Below are positions 12,369 to 15,628 of a stretch of 15,628 nt of DNA, piece after piece; the first letter of the stretch is position 1, and the number at the start of each line of letters is the position of its first letter. The DNA is from Solirubrobacterales bacterium (GTDB taxonomy: Bacteria; Actinomycetota; Thermoleophilia; Solirubrobacterales; Solirubrobacteraceae). The translations under genes were made by a program, and so were the position numbers. The stretch lies in the NCBI GenBank assembly GCA_013695395.1, contig JACDAP010000614.1:1-15628 (forward strand), in the 5' to 3' direction. The notes beneath the pieces were generated by a model. The model saw nothing but the letters and a program-made list of their open reading frames with translations, did no database searches and had not been told where the DNA came from.

Positions 12369-12697
12369 TCAGGACGGCGTACGTCCGGGCTCAAGCCGAT
12401 AGCGAGGGAGTCCGAGCTCCGTGGGGCCGGGCAGACCTGGCTGCCGCATCACCCATGCCTCGAAGTCGTGCTTGAGGTCGATTGGTTCGCCGACCGCTGC
12501 GGGTGGGGATTCGTGAGCGACACGGATCAGCAGGTCGCCGGGCACCAGAAGCAGAGGCCGCTCCAACGTTGCACCACATCGTCCGTCGCGCAGCATGCTG
12601 GGGGAAGAACGTCGCGATGAGATCACCGTCAGGCATAAGAATCGCGATCACCGGCGTGGGGCACTCGCTGGTCCTCGAGCAGGGGCAGGACGGTCAC
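12369..12697 (-). pseudogene. Unrecognised gene with disrupted reading frame, downstream of fic
   Basis: I do not recognise this gene. The minus strand starts with a GTG at 12697 that overlaps the fic stop as GTGA, giving 22 residues (VTVLPLLEDQRVPHAGDRD...) before a stop at 12629-12631. Coding character then continues in a second frame (from about 12640: MPDGDLIATFFPQHAARR) and, from about 12566, in a third (PLLLVPGDLLIRVAHESPP ... DFEAWVMRQPGLPGPTELG) to a stop at 12369. In each stretch the chosen frame has mostly G/C third positions and a protein-like composition, whereas the alternatives do not. The simplest reading is one gene of about 110 codons with two frameshifts; sequencing error is the alternative. 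A terminator-like stem follows its stop. The 373 bases between fadB and fic hold nothing else I can support. Confidence 0.45.
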
Positions 12698-13755
12698 TCG
12701 CTCGCCCGTCGAACTCGATGCCAGCGCGTCCCGCGACCGGCTCCACGCATCTCCACGAGTTCTTCTGCTCGGAACTCCCGGAGGAGCTTCCCGAGGTAGT
12801 CGCGGCTAACCGGCACCGAGTCGAGCACCTCGCCGACCGCGAACCCCTCGCGACCTGAGGTTTCGATGAACGCGCGAACGAGCTCGCGCTTGTCGGTTGA
12901 CTTGGCCGGCATCGCGTCGATCCGCTCCTCGAACTCCCGATACGCGGCCACGATCACGCCGAGCAGGTAGCGAGTCCACGGCAGCAGGTCATGGCGGTTC
13001 TCATGCCAGCTCTCCGTCGAGGCGGCGAGGGCGTCGTAATAGTCGACCTTGGTGTCGGCCACGATGCGCTCCAAGCTGATGTAGCGGCCGACACCGAATC
13101 CCCCGCGGTAGAGGAGCCAGAGCGTGATGAGGCGGGCCATGCGCCCGTTGCCGTCGGTGAACGGGTGGATCGTGAGGAAGTCGAGGACGTAGGCGGCGCA
13201 CAGCAGCGGATAGGGAATCTCGTCAGCCCGCTCCGCCGCAGTGAAGCGCTGGTGTAGCTCCTCCATGGCTGCGGGCGTCCGCTGCGCGTCGACCGGAGTG
13301 AACCGGACGACGACGGCACCGTCGGACGCTCGCTCGACCACCTTGTTGTCGGTGCGCTTGAACGATCCGGCGTGGCGCGCGCCTGTGAAGCGATAGAGAT
13401 GGCCGTGTAGCTGCAGGACGTAGCGTGGCTCGAACGGGATGTCGAGCCCCTGCTCGTGGATCTCGCCGAGGACGAACCGGTACCCCGCGATCTCCTGCTC
13501 GGGTCGATCTCGTGGCGTGACCTTCTCGGTCGCAAGCTTCCTGATGCGTGCCGACGGAGCGTGGATGCCCTCGATCGCGTTTGACGTCTCGATGCTCTGA
13601 ACCACGGCGATCTCGCGAAGGGTGGCGAGCTCGTGCGGTCTCCGCACTCGAGCCGCCGTCTCCGCCCCCCGGCCTTCCCCGAGCGAGACGAGTTGAGCCA
13701 CCACGTCGAGAGAAAGCTCTGAGAAGTGACGTGTCAGGTCGCGGAAGGACTCCAT
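12694..13755 (-). CDS. Fic-family protein (protein AMP-transferase), class II
   Basis: A 353-residue Fic/DOC protein. The Fic motif HPFTDGNGR is complete at 197-205, including the catalytic histidine H197 and the nucleotide-binding arginine. An N-terminal inhibitory-helix motif (S/T)xxxE(G/N) is present as SNAIEG at 58-63, which puts it in class II, where E62 blocks the ATP gamma-phosphate position and keeps the enzyme restrained. The C-terminal 60 residues (GFAVGEVLDSVPVSRDYLGKLL...) look like a winged helix-turn-helix. Fic enzymes transfer AMP to hydroxyl side chains of target proteins; some act as toxins, others as regulators, and the target here is unknown. ATG at 13755 was chosen; an in-frame ATG at 13797 is possible. 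Neither has a Shine-Dalgarno, so leaderless or weak initiation is possible. Divergent from the cas operon. Confidence 0.9.
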   Translation of the reverse strand: MESFRDLTRHFSELSLDVVAQLVSLGEGRGAETAARVRRPHELATLREIAVVQSIETSNAIEGIHAPSARIRKLATEKVTPRDRPEQEIAGYRFVLGEIHEQGLDIPFEPRYVLQLHGHLYRFTGARHAGSFKRTDNKVVERASDGAVVVRFTPVDAQRTPAAMEELHQRFTAAERADEIPYPLLCAAYVLDFLTIHPFTDGNGRMARLITLWLLYRGGFGVGRYISLERIVADTKVDYYDALAASTESWHENRHDLLPWTRYLLGVIVAAYREFEERIDAMPAKSTDKRELVRAFIETSGREGFAVGEVLDSVPVSRDYLGKLLREFRAEELVEMRGAGRGTRWHRVRRASE

Positions 13756-13779
13756 GTCGTGCAAGCGTAAGCCGATCCC

Positions 13780-13807
13780 AACGTACGAAACAAGCATTCT
13801 GCAGCAA
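13780..13807 (-). promoter_or_regulatory. Weak candidate fic promoter
   Basis: On the minus strand, TTGCTG (13802-13807) and TACGTT (13780-13785) are 16 bases apart and would start transcription about 18 bases before the fic ATG. Only three bases match in each hexamer, so this is tentative. Confidence 0.25.
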
Positions 13808-13809
13808 GG

Positions 13810-13833
13810 TTCATGCAAGTCGGAAGGACATGA
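13810..13833 (+). promoter_or_regulatory. Protospacer-like target between fic and cas promoters
   Basis: TTC at 13810-13812 is followed by a 21-base stretch (13813-13833) that matches the leader segment 13952-13972 at 18 of 21 positions; the mismatches are at positions 6, 12 and 18 only. TTN is a known type I-U/I-G PAM. The site lies 17 bases before the cas -35 box and next to the candidate fic -35. It also has an imperfect dyad (CAAGTC and GACATG), so a protein operator is the alternative reading. Confidence 0.5.
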
Positions 13834-13850
13834 GTTCCGATCTAGTTCGC

Positions 13851-13880
13851 TTGACAAGGGGCCATTCTCCGCACTAGCGT
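13851..13880 (+). promoter_or_regulatory. Promoter of the cas operon and its leader RNA
   Basis: A perfect TTGACA -35 (13851-13856), 18-base spacer, and TAGCGT -10 (13875-13880, TAnnnT). Transcription would begin near 13887, leaving an untranslated leader of about 150 bases before csb1. This is the best promoter match seen in the window. Confidence 0.65.
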
Positions 13881-13885
13881 CGGAG
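13867..13885. repeat. Dyad over the cas -10 box, possible operator
   Basis: CTCCG and CGGAG arms 9 bases apart enclose the -10 hexamer. The left arm plus flank (CTCCGCACT) recurs as a direct repeat at 13899-13907, 32 bases on. Placement suits repressor binding; chance cannot be excluded for 5-base arms. Confidence 0.3.
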
Positions 13886-13915
13886 TTGTCAGACATTGCT
13901 CCGCACTGACGACAC

Positions 13916-13951
13916 ACCTGCCAAGCGCACTCGGCAGGTCTCCGTAGACGC
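13916..13951 (+). repeat. CRISPR-repeat-like element 1 in the csb1 leader
   Basis: A 36-base unit: a perfect 7-pair stem ACCTGCC/GGCAGGT (13916-13922 and 13933-13939) with a 10-base loop, then a 12-base tail beginning CTCCGTA. Length and layout are those of a type I CRISPR repeat. The second copy (13993-14023) has the same tail start and a covarying stem. Confidence 0.5.
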
Positions 13952-13992
13952 ATGCAGGTCGGGAGGACCTGAACGAGGCAGTCCCTGTTCGC
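13952..13992 (+). ncRNA. Guide-like segment of a putative CRISPR-resembling regulatory RNA
   Basis: Lies between the two repeat-like hairpins and is 41 bases long, near spacer size. Its first 21 bases match the site at 13813-13833 except at positions 6, 12 and 18; after position 21 the similarity stops. Partial pairing of this kind is how known CreA/CreR-type RNAs repress promoters through Cascade without cutting. One caution: bases 13955-13971 form a hairpin of their own (CAGGTC and GACCTG, 5-base loop), which is unusual for a guide seed. Would be transcribed from the cas promoter and could be processed by the Cas6-type activity of Csb2. Confidence 0.42.
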
Positions 13993-14023
13993 AGCCGCCG
14001 TCCCGGCGGCTCTCCGTACCCCA
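13993..14023 (+). repeat. CRISPR-repeat-like element 2 in the csb1 leader
   Basis: A 7-pair stem AGCCGCC/GGCGGCT (13993-13999 and 14005-14011) with a 5-base loop, followed by CTCCGTA and five more bases. Compared with element 1, pairs 2 and 4 of the stem differ on both sides so pairing is kept. The loop is shorter (5 against 10). The 3' arms of the two elements are exactly 72 bases apart. Confidence 0.45.
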
Positions 14024-14031
14024 CCCGAGAG
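14010..14031 (+). promoter_or_regulatory. Possible hairpin that hides the csb1 ribosome-binding site
   Basis: CTCTC (14010-14014) can pair with GAGAG (14027-14031), the core of the csb1 Shine-Dalgarno GAGAGGA. It shares bases 14010-14011 with the stem of repeat-like element 2, so the two folds compete. Five pairs with a 12-base loop are weak. Confidence 0.25.
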
Positions 14032-14037
14032 GATCCA

Positions 14038-15126
14038 GTGCTGCCCATCGACGTACTCCGTGCCGGCCTGTCCGCCACGCCTTCTGCGCACCGCCCCGCG
14101 GGGATCGAGGTGCGACAGGAGCTCGCACCCGCCGCTGGCGCGCCCGTCAGCCCGCCCTCCTACCTGGGGGAGCTCGAGATTCATGCCCGCCATGTCGACG
14201 GCCAGGTCCGCGACGTGATCGAGCTGGATTCCGTCGGCTCGAGCGCCAACCGGATCGAGGAGGCCCTCCTCGTGGAACATCGCGAGGGTCGGTACCCGCT
14301 TCCGTTGACCAGTACGGCGATCGAGAGCGCGGGGCAGCGCTTCGACATCACGACGCTCGAGGCGCCGCACCGGCTCTTCGACGCCTGGATCCGGCTCTCC
14401 TCGCTGCCCGACGAAGAGCGAGCCTTCGAGCAGTCTGAGCGTGGTCACGAGCTGAGCCTCGCGCACCTGGGCGCGCTCGATCCGATCCTCGAGGCCTCGA
14501 GCCACGACCTGCTCCTCGGGGTCTGGGACTCGCACCGCACCGGGCCGAGCGGGCAGGTCCGTATCGCACGGAGCTTCGTCAGCACCGTGCTCGGTTTCGA
14601 CCCCTTGAAGGTCGACACGCGAGCGGCTCGCGTGGATCCGCTGAACCTCGGCGAGGCCGCGCAGCTCAAGGGGCCCGATGTGAAGCGACTCTCGGAGCGG
14701 GGGCTCAGCTCGATCCCACCGCAGGTACGCCGACCGGGCGTGTCGATCAGCGCGGCGCGGTTCGTGGGGTTCGTCTCCTTCGCCTCGCTGCGGCGCCTGC
14801 GCTTCGACCGCTACGACGACACCGACGTCCGGGTCGCGCTCGCTGCGCTCTGCCTGCACGGGCTGATGCTGCGTGAGTCGGCAGGGTGGAGCCTGCGCTC
14901 GGAGTGCGACCTGGTCCCGACGGGTGACCTCGCGTTGAGCGTCGTCCGCGGGGGCGGCGCTCCGCCGGAGGCGCTTCCGTTGACGCTCGAGGACACCCGC
15001 GCGCTGCTCGACGAGGCCGTCGGGAAGGCGGGGATCGCCGACCGGGGACTGCGGCTCGTCGGCGGTCCGACGCTCATGCCGCTCGTCGAACGCGGGCTCG
15101 CCGCGAGCGTCGCGCGGGAGGGCTAA
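14038..15126 (+). CDS. csb1: Type I-G (I-U) CRISPR-associated protein Csb1 (Cas7)
   Basis: A 362-residue member of the Csb1/GSU0053 family, the Cas7-like backbone subunit that coats the guide RNA in type I-G (formerly I-U) Cascade. Family landmarks: DSVGSSANRIEEALL at 64-78, DITTLEAPHRLFDAWIR at 103-119, LAHLGALDPI and SSHDLLLGVWDSHR at 141-167, ARSFVSTVLGFDPL at 177-190. A Gly-containing RRLRF segment follows at 252-256. The start is GTG at 14038, 4 bases after GAGAGGA. Full length for the family. It follows a long structured leader and is followed after 5 bases by csb2, so the two are in one operon. The assignment is by recognised sequence pattern, not by a search. Confidence 0.88.
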   Translation: MLPIDVLRAGLSATPSAHRPAGIEVRQELAPAAGAPVSPPSYLGELEIHARHVDGQVRDVIELDSVGSSANRIEEALLVEHREGRYPLPLTSTAIESAGQRFDITTLEAPHRLFDAWIRLSSLPDEERAFEQSERGHELSLAHLGALDPILEASSHDLLLGVWDSHRTGPSGQVRIARSFVSTVLGFDPLKVDTRAARVDPLNLGEAAQLKGPDVKRLSERGLSSIPPQVRRPGVSISAARFVGFVSFASLRRLRFDRYDDTDVRVALAALCLHGLMLRESAGWSLRSECDLVPTGDLALSVVRGGGAPPEALPLTLEDTRALLDEAVGKAGIADRGLRLVGGPTLMPLVERGLAASVAREG

Positions 15127-15131
15127 GCGCT

Positions 15132-15628
15132 GTGCTCGCCGTGGTGCTGCGTTTTCCGCTGGGTGTCTACCACGCGCAGGCGCAGGACGACTTCGCGCGG
15201 CCGGAGTGGCCGCCGCATCCGGTCCGGCTGGTCGCCGCACTCCTCGCGGCTGCGCATACACGTGGGGTAGATGTGGCAGCAGCGCGGTCCGTCCTCGCCC
15301 GGCTGTCGGCCGCCGACCCGCCGGTGATCCTCGCGCCGCGGGCTCGCGACGAGGTGCCGGCCAGCGAGCGTGACGCGCCGACCGACGAACCGCTCGTCGC
15401 GTCGCTCCGCGGGGCGTCGCGGTGGGCTCCCCGCAATCACGAGCTCTCCGAGCTGAGGAGGGATGGTGTCTACCCCCGTGAACTCGGTCGCAAGCGGGCG
15501 GAGGTCCACAAGGTCGGCGTGGCGATCGGCGATCAATCGGTCGCGTTCTCCTGGCCCGAACTAGAGCTCACCGCCGACCAACTCGCCGTGTTCGAGGAGT
15601 TGGTGGAGGACGTGGCGTTCCTGGGAAC
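15132..15628 (+). CDS. csb2: Type I-G (I-U) CRISPR-associated protein Csb2 (Cas5/Cas6-type), cut by window end
   Basis: The frame from GTG 15132 is open for 165 codons to the end of the window. The start LAVVLRFPLGVYHAQ... followed by EWPPHPVRLVAALLAAAH (near 25-42) is the N-terminal pattern of Csb2/GSU0054 (strand, then WPPxPxRLxxALxAA helix). Csb2 combines a Cas5-like part with a Cas6-like RNase part in type I-G systems; only the first third or so is visible, so the catalytic Cas6 region is outside. GGGAGGG sits 9 bases before the GTG and 5 bases separate it from the csb1 stop. Cas3, the large subunit Csx17, and adaptation genes would be expected beyond the edge. Confidence 0.82.
   Translation, partial: MLAVVLRFPLGVYHAQAQDDFARPEWPPHPVRLVAALLAAAHTRGVDVAAARSVLARLSAADPPVILAPRARDEVPASERDAPTDEPLVASLRGASRWAPRNHELSELRRDGVYPRELGRKRAEVHKVGVAIGDQSVAFSWPELELTADQLAVFEELVEDVAFLG

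Follow-up and report, generated by a model that had tools for sequence, protein, structure and literature searches.

The leader of csb1 (cas7g) in a 15,628-nucleotide (nt) contig from a Solirubrobacterales bacterium holds two degenerate repeats of the clustered regularly interspaced short palindromic repeats (CRISPR) kind with a single guide between them, and a target for that guide, flanked by a protospacer adjacent motif (PAM), lies beside a candidate promoter into csb1. Guide and target match at every read position from 1 to 21 and differ at every sixth base, the arrangement recurs in other type I-G loci, and there guide and target co-vary. We think it very likely, with a probability of roughly 0.85 on sequence evidence, that the leader encodes a CreR-type autorepressor of type I-G, in which a minimal degenerate CRISPR (psiR1, guide, psiR2) would guide Cascade to the cas promoter. 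The window analyzed is the entire contig (C26), and the assembly to which it belongs comprises 3.25 Mb in 637 contigs and is 87% complete.

Anatomy of the csb1 leader

An initial annotation had pointed to two 22-base copies, read as a regulatory guide and its target, and these proved to be real: 13812-13833 (CATGCAAGTCGGAAGGACATGA) and 13951-13972 (CATGCAGGTCGGGAGGACCTGA) differ only at 13818, 13824 and 13830. TTC is found at 13810-13812, upstream of the target, and CGC directly before the guide start at 13952. Counted from that start, the misses fall at positions 6, 12 and 18, the read positions between 1 and 21 match 18/18, and similarity ends after 21. Both of the hairpins said to flank the downstream copy also exist, with stems at 13916-13922/13933-13939 and 13993-14000/14004-14011 in the predicted fold. 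The parts are as follows.

13810..13812 (+), PAM TTC, read from the sequence; type I-G uses TTN (PMC9638904)
13813..13848 (+), target, 36-nt protospacer; 13813-13833 equals the guide except at 13818, 13824 and 13830
13916..13951 (+), degenerate repeat 1 (psiR1): hairpin 13916-13939, CTCC, 8-nt handle GTAGACGC (13944-13951); from one mismatch to the cognate repeat end and the fold
13952..13987 (+), guide, 36 nt, between psiR1 and psiR2; its first 21 nt address the target
13988..14023 (+), degenerate repeat 2 (psiR2): hairpin 13993-14011, CTCC (14012-14015), GTACCCCA; CTCTCCGTA in common with the cognate repeat; fold z -3.2
13944..14015 (+), predicted mature RNA of 72 nt, made up of the 8-nt handle, the 36-nt guide and 28 nt of psiR2, placed by the published Csb2 cut (PMC9638904)

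According to the part of PMC9638904 available, type I-G systems use a TTN PAM, Csb2 cuts 4 nt 3' of the hairpin base to leave an 8-nt handle, and each Cas7 subunit flips out the sixth base. The leader agrees with all three of these rules, in its PAM, in its hairpin-CTCC-handle spacing and in the bases at which guide and target part.

A comparison with the cognate CRISPR repeat, which the initial annotation had proposed, bore out the guide boundary. A search of the assembly for CTCCGTAGAMGC returned three sites, the leader at 13940-13951 and two on another contig (C571), the start of which is the end of a CRISPR array with repeat CCATCAGGCTCCTTCCGGGAGCCTCTCCGTAGAAGC, present as two slightly differing copies and a degenerate last one. 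Spacers there begin directly after GAAGC, and two repeats end in CTCCGTAGAAGC immediately before a spacer; in the relative L015, a Patulibacter, repeats end in CTCCGTAGAAGC and CTTCGTAGAAGC. The leader copy, CTCCGTAGACGC, departs at one base from the final 13 nt of the repeat in this assembly's array and ends at 13951, exactly where the guide must begin, so that the guide start at 13952 is fixed independently of the target. It is the same base that is predicted from the TTC at 13810-13812.

A 19/22 pair was reached in none of 2000 dinucleotide shuffles of 13760-14037, two of which reached 18. With the guide start held at 13952, the target matched 18/20 read positions in the first 24, and 3000 shuffles of 13700-13950 gave a maximum of 14. 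The next best read-position run in the whole window, on both strands, was 6, compared to 18 for the target. Across the 3.25 Mb of the assembly, exact matches to ATGCANGTCGGNAGG are confined to these two sites, and two further sites match with one mismatch.

Both copies are also dyads of the form CAnGTC-N5-GACnTG, perfect in the guide (13955-13971, CAGGTC-GGGAG-GACCTG) and imperfect in the target, and they could be taken for two operators of a dimeric transcription factor that differ at the centre and at a symmetric pair. The perfect 6+6 dyad of the downstream copy and the symmetry of the differences at 6 and 18 around 12 would fit such operators, and the C-terminal part of the Fic protein encoded by the divergent neighbour, which by eye resembles a winged helix, might be DNA-binding. 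Operators would leave unexplained, however, the repeat-derived boundary at 13951, the PAM, the matches outside the dyad (1-3 and 21) and the same anatomy elsewhere with other guide sequences, and the restriction of exact seed-pattern matches to two sites also speaks against them; we regard this explanation as most improbable. A riboswitch or attenuator reading of the leader was tried as well and is unsupported, the whole-leader fold being no stabler than shuffles (z 0.05). An Rfam search of 13700-14100 gave no match at E up to 1.

Recurrence and co-variation in other type I-G loci

Recurrence was assessed in 54 type I-G loci, namely the window and 28 and 25 loci from two collections, with csb1 starts estimated by script, one locus (G812) left out and a check for duplicate genomes confined to L014 and L015. 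A repeat-blind scan of the 450 base pairs (bp) upstream of csb1 paired a TTN-flanked target with a plus-strand guide, ignored every sixth base and used 100 shuffles per locus. Three of the 54 loci were unmatched by any shuffle: L019, which has a real array there, the window, and L014, from a Conexibacter assembly. The guide picked in this way follows CTCCGTAGACGC in the window and CCTCGTTGAAGG in L014; the L014 array repeat, taken in the same direction, has CTCCGTTGAAGC as its end.

A second, repeat-first survey defined guides solely by repeat-like ends, on either strand and within 800 bp, and L019 was dropped from it for the real array in its upstream region, which left 132 guides in 53 loci. 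At a threshold of at least 13/15 read positions in the first 17, with a TTN target nearby, one guide passed in each of 7/53 loci (window 15, L016 15, L018 14, L025 14, L014 13, L037 13 and L103 13). When guide starts were moved 1 to 6 bases in either direction, a single locus passed in twelve shifts (L025 at -1), a rate of 1 in 1584, and when guides were swapped onto other loci's regions none passed (371 trials, maximum 12). Ignoring positions 6n gave seven loci, two of them mismatch-free, whereas the other phases gave four or five loci and none mismatch-free. Without the PAM demand, 13/132 guides reached 13/15; seven had TTN and are those of the seven loci kept, and the six non-TTN guides set aside came from L027 (three, of which two form the arms of a single inverted repeat), L028, L089 and L101.

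Two ectopic repeats were seen besides these. One, in L092 at 1337-1372, is identical to the array repeat over 13/13 nt of its end and lies 148 bp before csb1; the region searched held no convincing target, and this repeat may regulate something elsewhere. The other, a repeat-like end in L089 at 9377 on the minus strand, has as its best partner a site with PAM TAA and 13/15 read positions.

The collection was extended in two directions. Eleven loci were taken from 21 plasmid records with csb1, seven of them scanned and four further ones, all Thermus, only aligned. No pair exceeded the shuffles in the plasmid loci of Rhodothermus, Streptomyces (two), Azotobacter and Methylomagnum. On Thermus thermophilus plasmids the pair score alone does not rise above 60 shuffles (scores of 14 and 15, with shuffle maxima of 16 and 15). 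In the best pair CGTTGCAGG immediately precedes the guide, and the array of that system has the repeat GTTGCATCCAAGCTTCACAGCTTGGCTACGTTGCAGG; because the guide starts at the end of the array repeat, we count Thermus as an eighth module, and T. thermophilus strains are probable carriers. Strain HB5018 (L124) departs from this pattern upstream of csb1 (1866): the TTGACA box is missing, the target is altered, and the guide is retained in diverged form. Expression studies could use this strain as a naturally occurring loss case.

The family to which the L103 genome belongs has csb1 in 16/51 genomes, and 12/373 guides reached 13/15. Nine of these were set aside by eye as palindromic array repeats read backwards (two in L143, one in L138 and six in L145); the three kept are L131, L142 and L050, the last of which is the same locus as L103. 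L131 and L142 are two more probable modules, graded so because the 1-in-1584 rate leaves a chance match among 373 guides in longer regions non-negligible. In the DNA upstream of csb1, similarity between L131 and the L103 locus is confined to parts outside the guide, and L142 shows none. L139, with a csb1 97% identical to that of L103, has no upstream DNA similarity to that locus and no module at threshold.

In the ten modules so assembled (seven survey loci, Thermus, L131 and L142), positions 6, 12 and 18 are mismatched in 25/30 cells, or 21/24 without L131 and L142. Within the first 16 positions, those that are not multiples of three show a mismatch in 3/110 cells, compared to 15/20 at 6 and 12; pairs were chosen for read-position matches, so that the low rate there is partly selection, and the sixth positions played no part in the choice. 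Position 6 is mismatched in 5/10 modules and positions 12 and 18 in 10/10, above the three quarters expected of free drift. Read positions 1-16 carry 11 mismatches in all, and eight of them are at 3, 9 or 15, midway along each six-base Cas7 segment (a post hoc binomial test on loci that are not independent gives p 0.0004; with one locus per clade the count is 3/5). Type I-G reading may have a second level of tolerance at these positions.

Co-variation of guide and target, which the initial annotation had proposed to look for in related genomes, was found among other type I-G loci, not the window's close relatives, with paired changes at 4-6 positions and pairing kept. Joint changes separate L018 from L025 at positions 1, 10, 15 and 19 (csb1 79% identical) and L016 from L037 at 7, 8, 10, 13, 14 and 16 (csb1 73% identical). 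L103 differs jointly from L131 at five positions and from L142 at six, and L131 from L142 at five; the counts with L131 and L142 assume homologous modules. One-sided changes are also present, mostly in comparisons with L142.

These patterns bear on whether the leader is a functionless, decaying array remnant whose spacer targets its own genome by accident. Degenerate repeats and pairing that stops at 21 of 36 would suit a remnant, as would the patchy occurrence of modules, with L139 as the case in point. A new self-spacer, on the other hand, would match all 36 nt, decay should strike read positions as well as the sixth ones, and compensated changes are seen among the loci compared. We therefore consider a remnant very unlikely.

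Promoters, neighbouring genes and points of doubt

All promoters named here, in the window and in the survey loci, are consensus matches. The genes and candidate promoters around the target are listed below.

12694..13755 (-), fic, Fic/DOC-family protein, 353 amino acids, divergent neighbour of csb1; PF02661 E 6.9e-16 and translation, with the start at 13755 chosen by us
13802..13807 (-), weak candidate fic -35 TTGCTG, then 16 nt and TACGTT at 13785-13780; 6/12 consensus matches, tentative
13851..13856 (+), candidate cas -35 TTGACA, 2 bp past the protospacer; missed by a stricter promoter scan
13875..13880 (+), candidate cas -10 TAGCGT, spacing 18; weak hexamer, 3/6
14038..15126 (+), csb1 (cas7g), GTG start; PF09617 E 6.5e-30
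15132..15628 (+), csb2, by position only, ended by the contig edge; open frame, a fragment without Pfam match

Of the type I-G effector genes, csb1 is thus present and csb2 incomplete at the contig end. The csb1 proteins P0002-P0015 are 72-89% identical to that of the window over most of its length or less; a scan of viral contigs with the csb1 alignment found no relative. In L015, a PIN-domain (VapC-like) gene at 1900-2482 lies directly upstream of csb1, as judged by eye, and the operon there lies between two arrays whose repeats have diverged.

The protospacer at 13813-13848 does end 2 bp short of the predicted cas -35 box, as had been described. The PAM side adjoins the candidate fic -35, as annotated, at a distance of 2 bp; that candidate is weak. 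A promoter-like CTGACA-17-GAGAAT at 13892-13864 on the minus strand lies inside the leader and points toward fic. Targets lie on, adjoining or just downstream of candidate cas promoters in six modules (window, Thermus, L018, L025, L037 and L016): the target covers the best plus-strand -35 candidate in L018, L025 and L037, it is just downstream of TTGACA-17-TATGCT in L016, and in Thermus the PAM is 2 bp from TTGACA-17-TATGCT. The L014 target covers a weak TAGAAT, and a further candidate promoter follows the mini-array. Three layouts are seen, divergent (L016, L018, L025 and L037), same strand upstream of the cas promoter (Thermus) and within the message leader (window). In the window the only plausible plus-strand promoter is upstream of the guide, which makes the guide part of the leader of the message.

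The position of the target between fic and cas raises the alternative that the guide mainly represses the divergent fic and serves as a guard of the CrePA or CreTA kind, with fic freed when Cascade is lost or inhibited. The PAM lies 2 bp from the weak fic -35 candidate, and fic is not core to the genus (a match in 2/7 other genomes, both just 29% identical). CrePA sets a precedent, with a CRISPR-resembling RNA that keeps a protein toxin in check (PMC12737573, in the part available). However, the fic promoter candidate is poor, fic is not next to csb1 in L014 or L015 (neighbours judged by eye), and several other modules are located at candidate cas promoters. The translation of the Fic protein contains, by eye, the motif HPFTDGNGR and the string SNAIEG. 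The latter fits the self-inhibition motif (S/T)xxxE(G/N), and for that reason Fic is unlikely to be a simple toxin and is not an obvious two-part one. A guard role appears improbable to us. A combined CreR and CrePA switch, in which Cascade between two divergent -35 boxes would hold down both the effector and Fic and an anti-CRISPR that removes Cascade would free both, is a doubtful proposition on present evidence; it is similarly doubtful that, as part of such a switch, each cut making the repressor would also trim the repressed message.

Several observations weigh against a CreR-type autorepressor. cas3 and cas8g were not found in the genome bin with queries from L014, and the contig stops within csb2. 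The cas -10 is weak, and the stricter scan reported no cas promoter, solely the minus-strand candidate at 13892-13864. In L014 and L103 the targets are away from the best cas promoter candidate, and in L025 (10/12) and L016 (9/12) minus-strand candidates as good as the cas ones overlap the target, so that the promoter acted on by Cascade there could instead be that of the guide RNA. The survey found no module at threshold in 46/53 loci. The guide dyad CAGGTC-N5-GACCTG could fold upon itself. Finally, type I-G Cascade is reported to bind linear double-stranded DNA stably only with Cas3 (PMC9638904, in the part available), and repression without cutting is therefore not a given.

Possible mode of action and relation to known systems

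If the leader acts as a CreR-type autorepressor, transcription would start from the promoter at 13851-13880 and Csb2 would cut the transcript to release the RNA of 13944-14015, which resembles a CRISPR RNA (crRNA). Loaded into type I-G Cascade, this RNA would bring the complex to 13813-13848 beside the cas -35, where pairing over read positions 1-21 of 36 would allow binding, presumably without destruction. Cascade on its target would block the cas promoter, so that plentiful idle Cascade would lower expression, and real crRNAs or anti-CRISPR proteins that draw Cascade away would let it rise. The guide would sit inside the leader of the very message that it represses, and fic, with its weak candidate promoter adjoining the target, may be co-repressed.

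CreR is a cas-regulating RNA (Liu and colleagues, Cell Host Microbe, 2023, doi 10.1016/j.chom.2023.08.005). It has reportedly been shown for types I-B, I-E and V-A. Ectopic degenerate repeats around a single guide near a cas operon are found in the window (psiR1 and psiR2, compared to its own array repeat), as is limited complementarity to a PAM-flanked site in the predicted cas promoter region (18/18 read positions 1-21; TTC; 2 bp from TTGACA). Pairing kept by selection across relatives, a mark of CreR that we added ourselves, is seen in five comparisons between other type I-G loci, some of which assume homology. The cognate repeat, the recurrence and the co-variation thus all favour the regulatory-guide reading of the initial annotation.

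The available part of the review PMC12737573 describes CreR as a crRNA-like RNA that directs the effector to its own cas operon promoter and is expected to sense free effector, and places it in type I and V-A. The predicted guide RNA of the window is likewise aimed at its own cas promoter; unlike CreR as known, it belongs to subtype I-G and lies inside the leader of the repressed message. In CreTA (CreA and CreT), one or two degenerate repeats and one guide similarly send Cascade to a promoter (PMC8501985 and PMC9458426, in the parts available). CreA, however, represses a small toxic RNA, whereas the window's target abuts a candidate promoter into csb1; no such toxic RNA was identified in the window, where no search for one was made. 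CrePA is alike in that a crRNA-like RNA silences a protein-coding gene until Cascade is inhibited, and it differs in that CreP typically has a KilA-N domain (PMC12737573), the window's neighbour being Fic, which may or may not be repressed. An ordinary type I-G crRNA (PMC9638904) shares the handle length, the hairpin offset, the TTN PAM and the 5+1 reading, and is unlike the window's guide RNA in that the repeats here are degenerate and just 21 of 36 nt match the target, which is the cas promoter region. In the parts available, the main text of PMC12737573 contains neither of the terms I-G and I-U, and I-G is absent from PMC8501985 and I-U from PMC9458426.

Type I-G is described in the abstract of PMC9638904 as the least well understood type I subtype. 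If the proposal is true, RNA-guided cas autorepression extends to it, and the modules would provide a natural evolutionary record of the bases that Cascade reads. The probable module in Thermus thermophilus makes the idea testable in a cultivable host, and a built-in repressor would matter for genome engineering, for which type I-G is in use (PMC10482374, in the part available). The loci compared here make it probable that some type I-G defence systems turn themselves down by means of an RNA guide.
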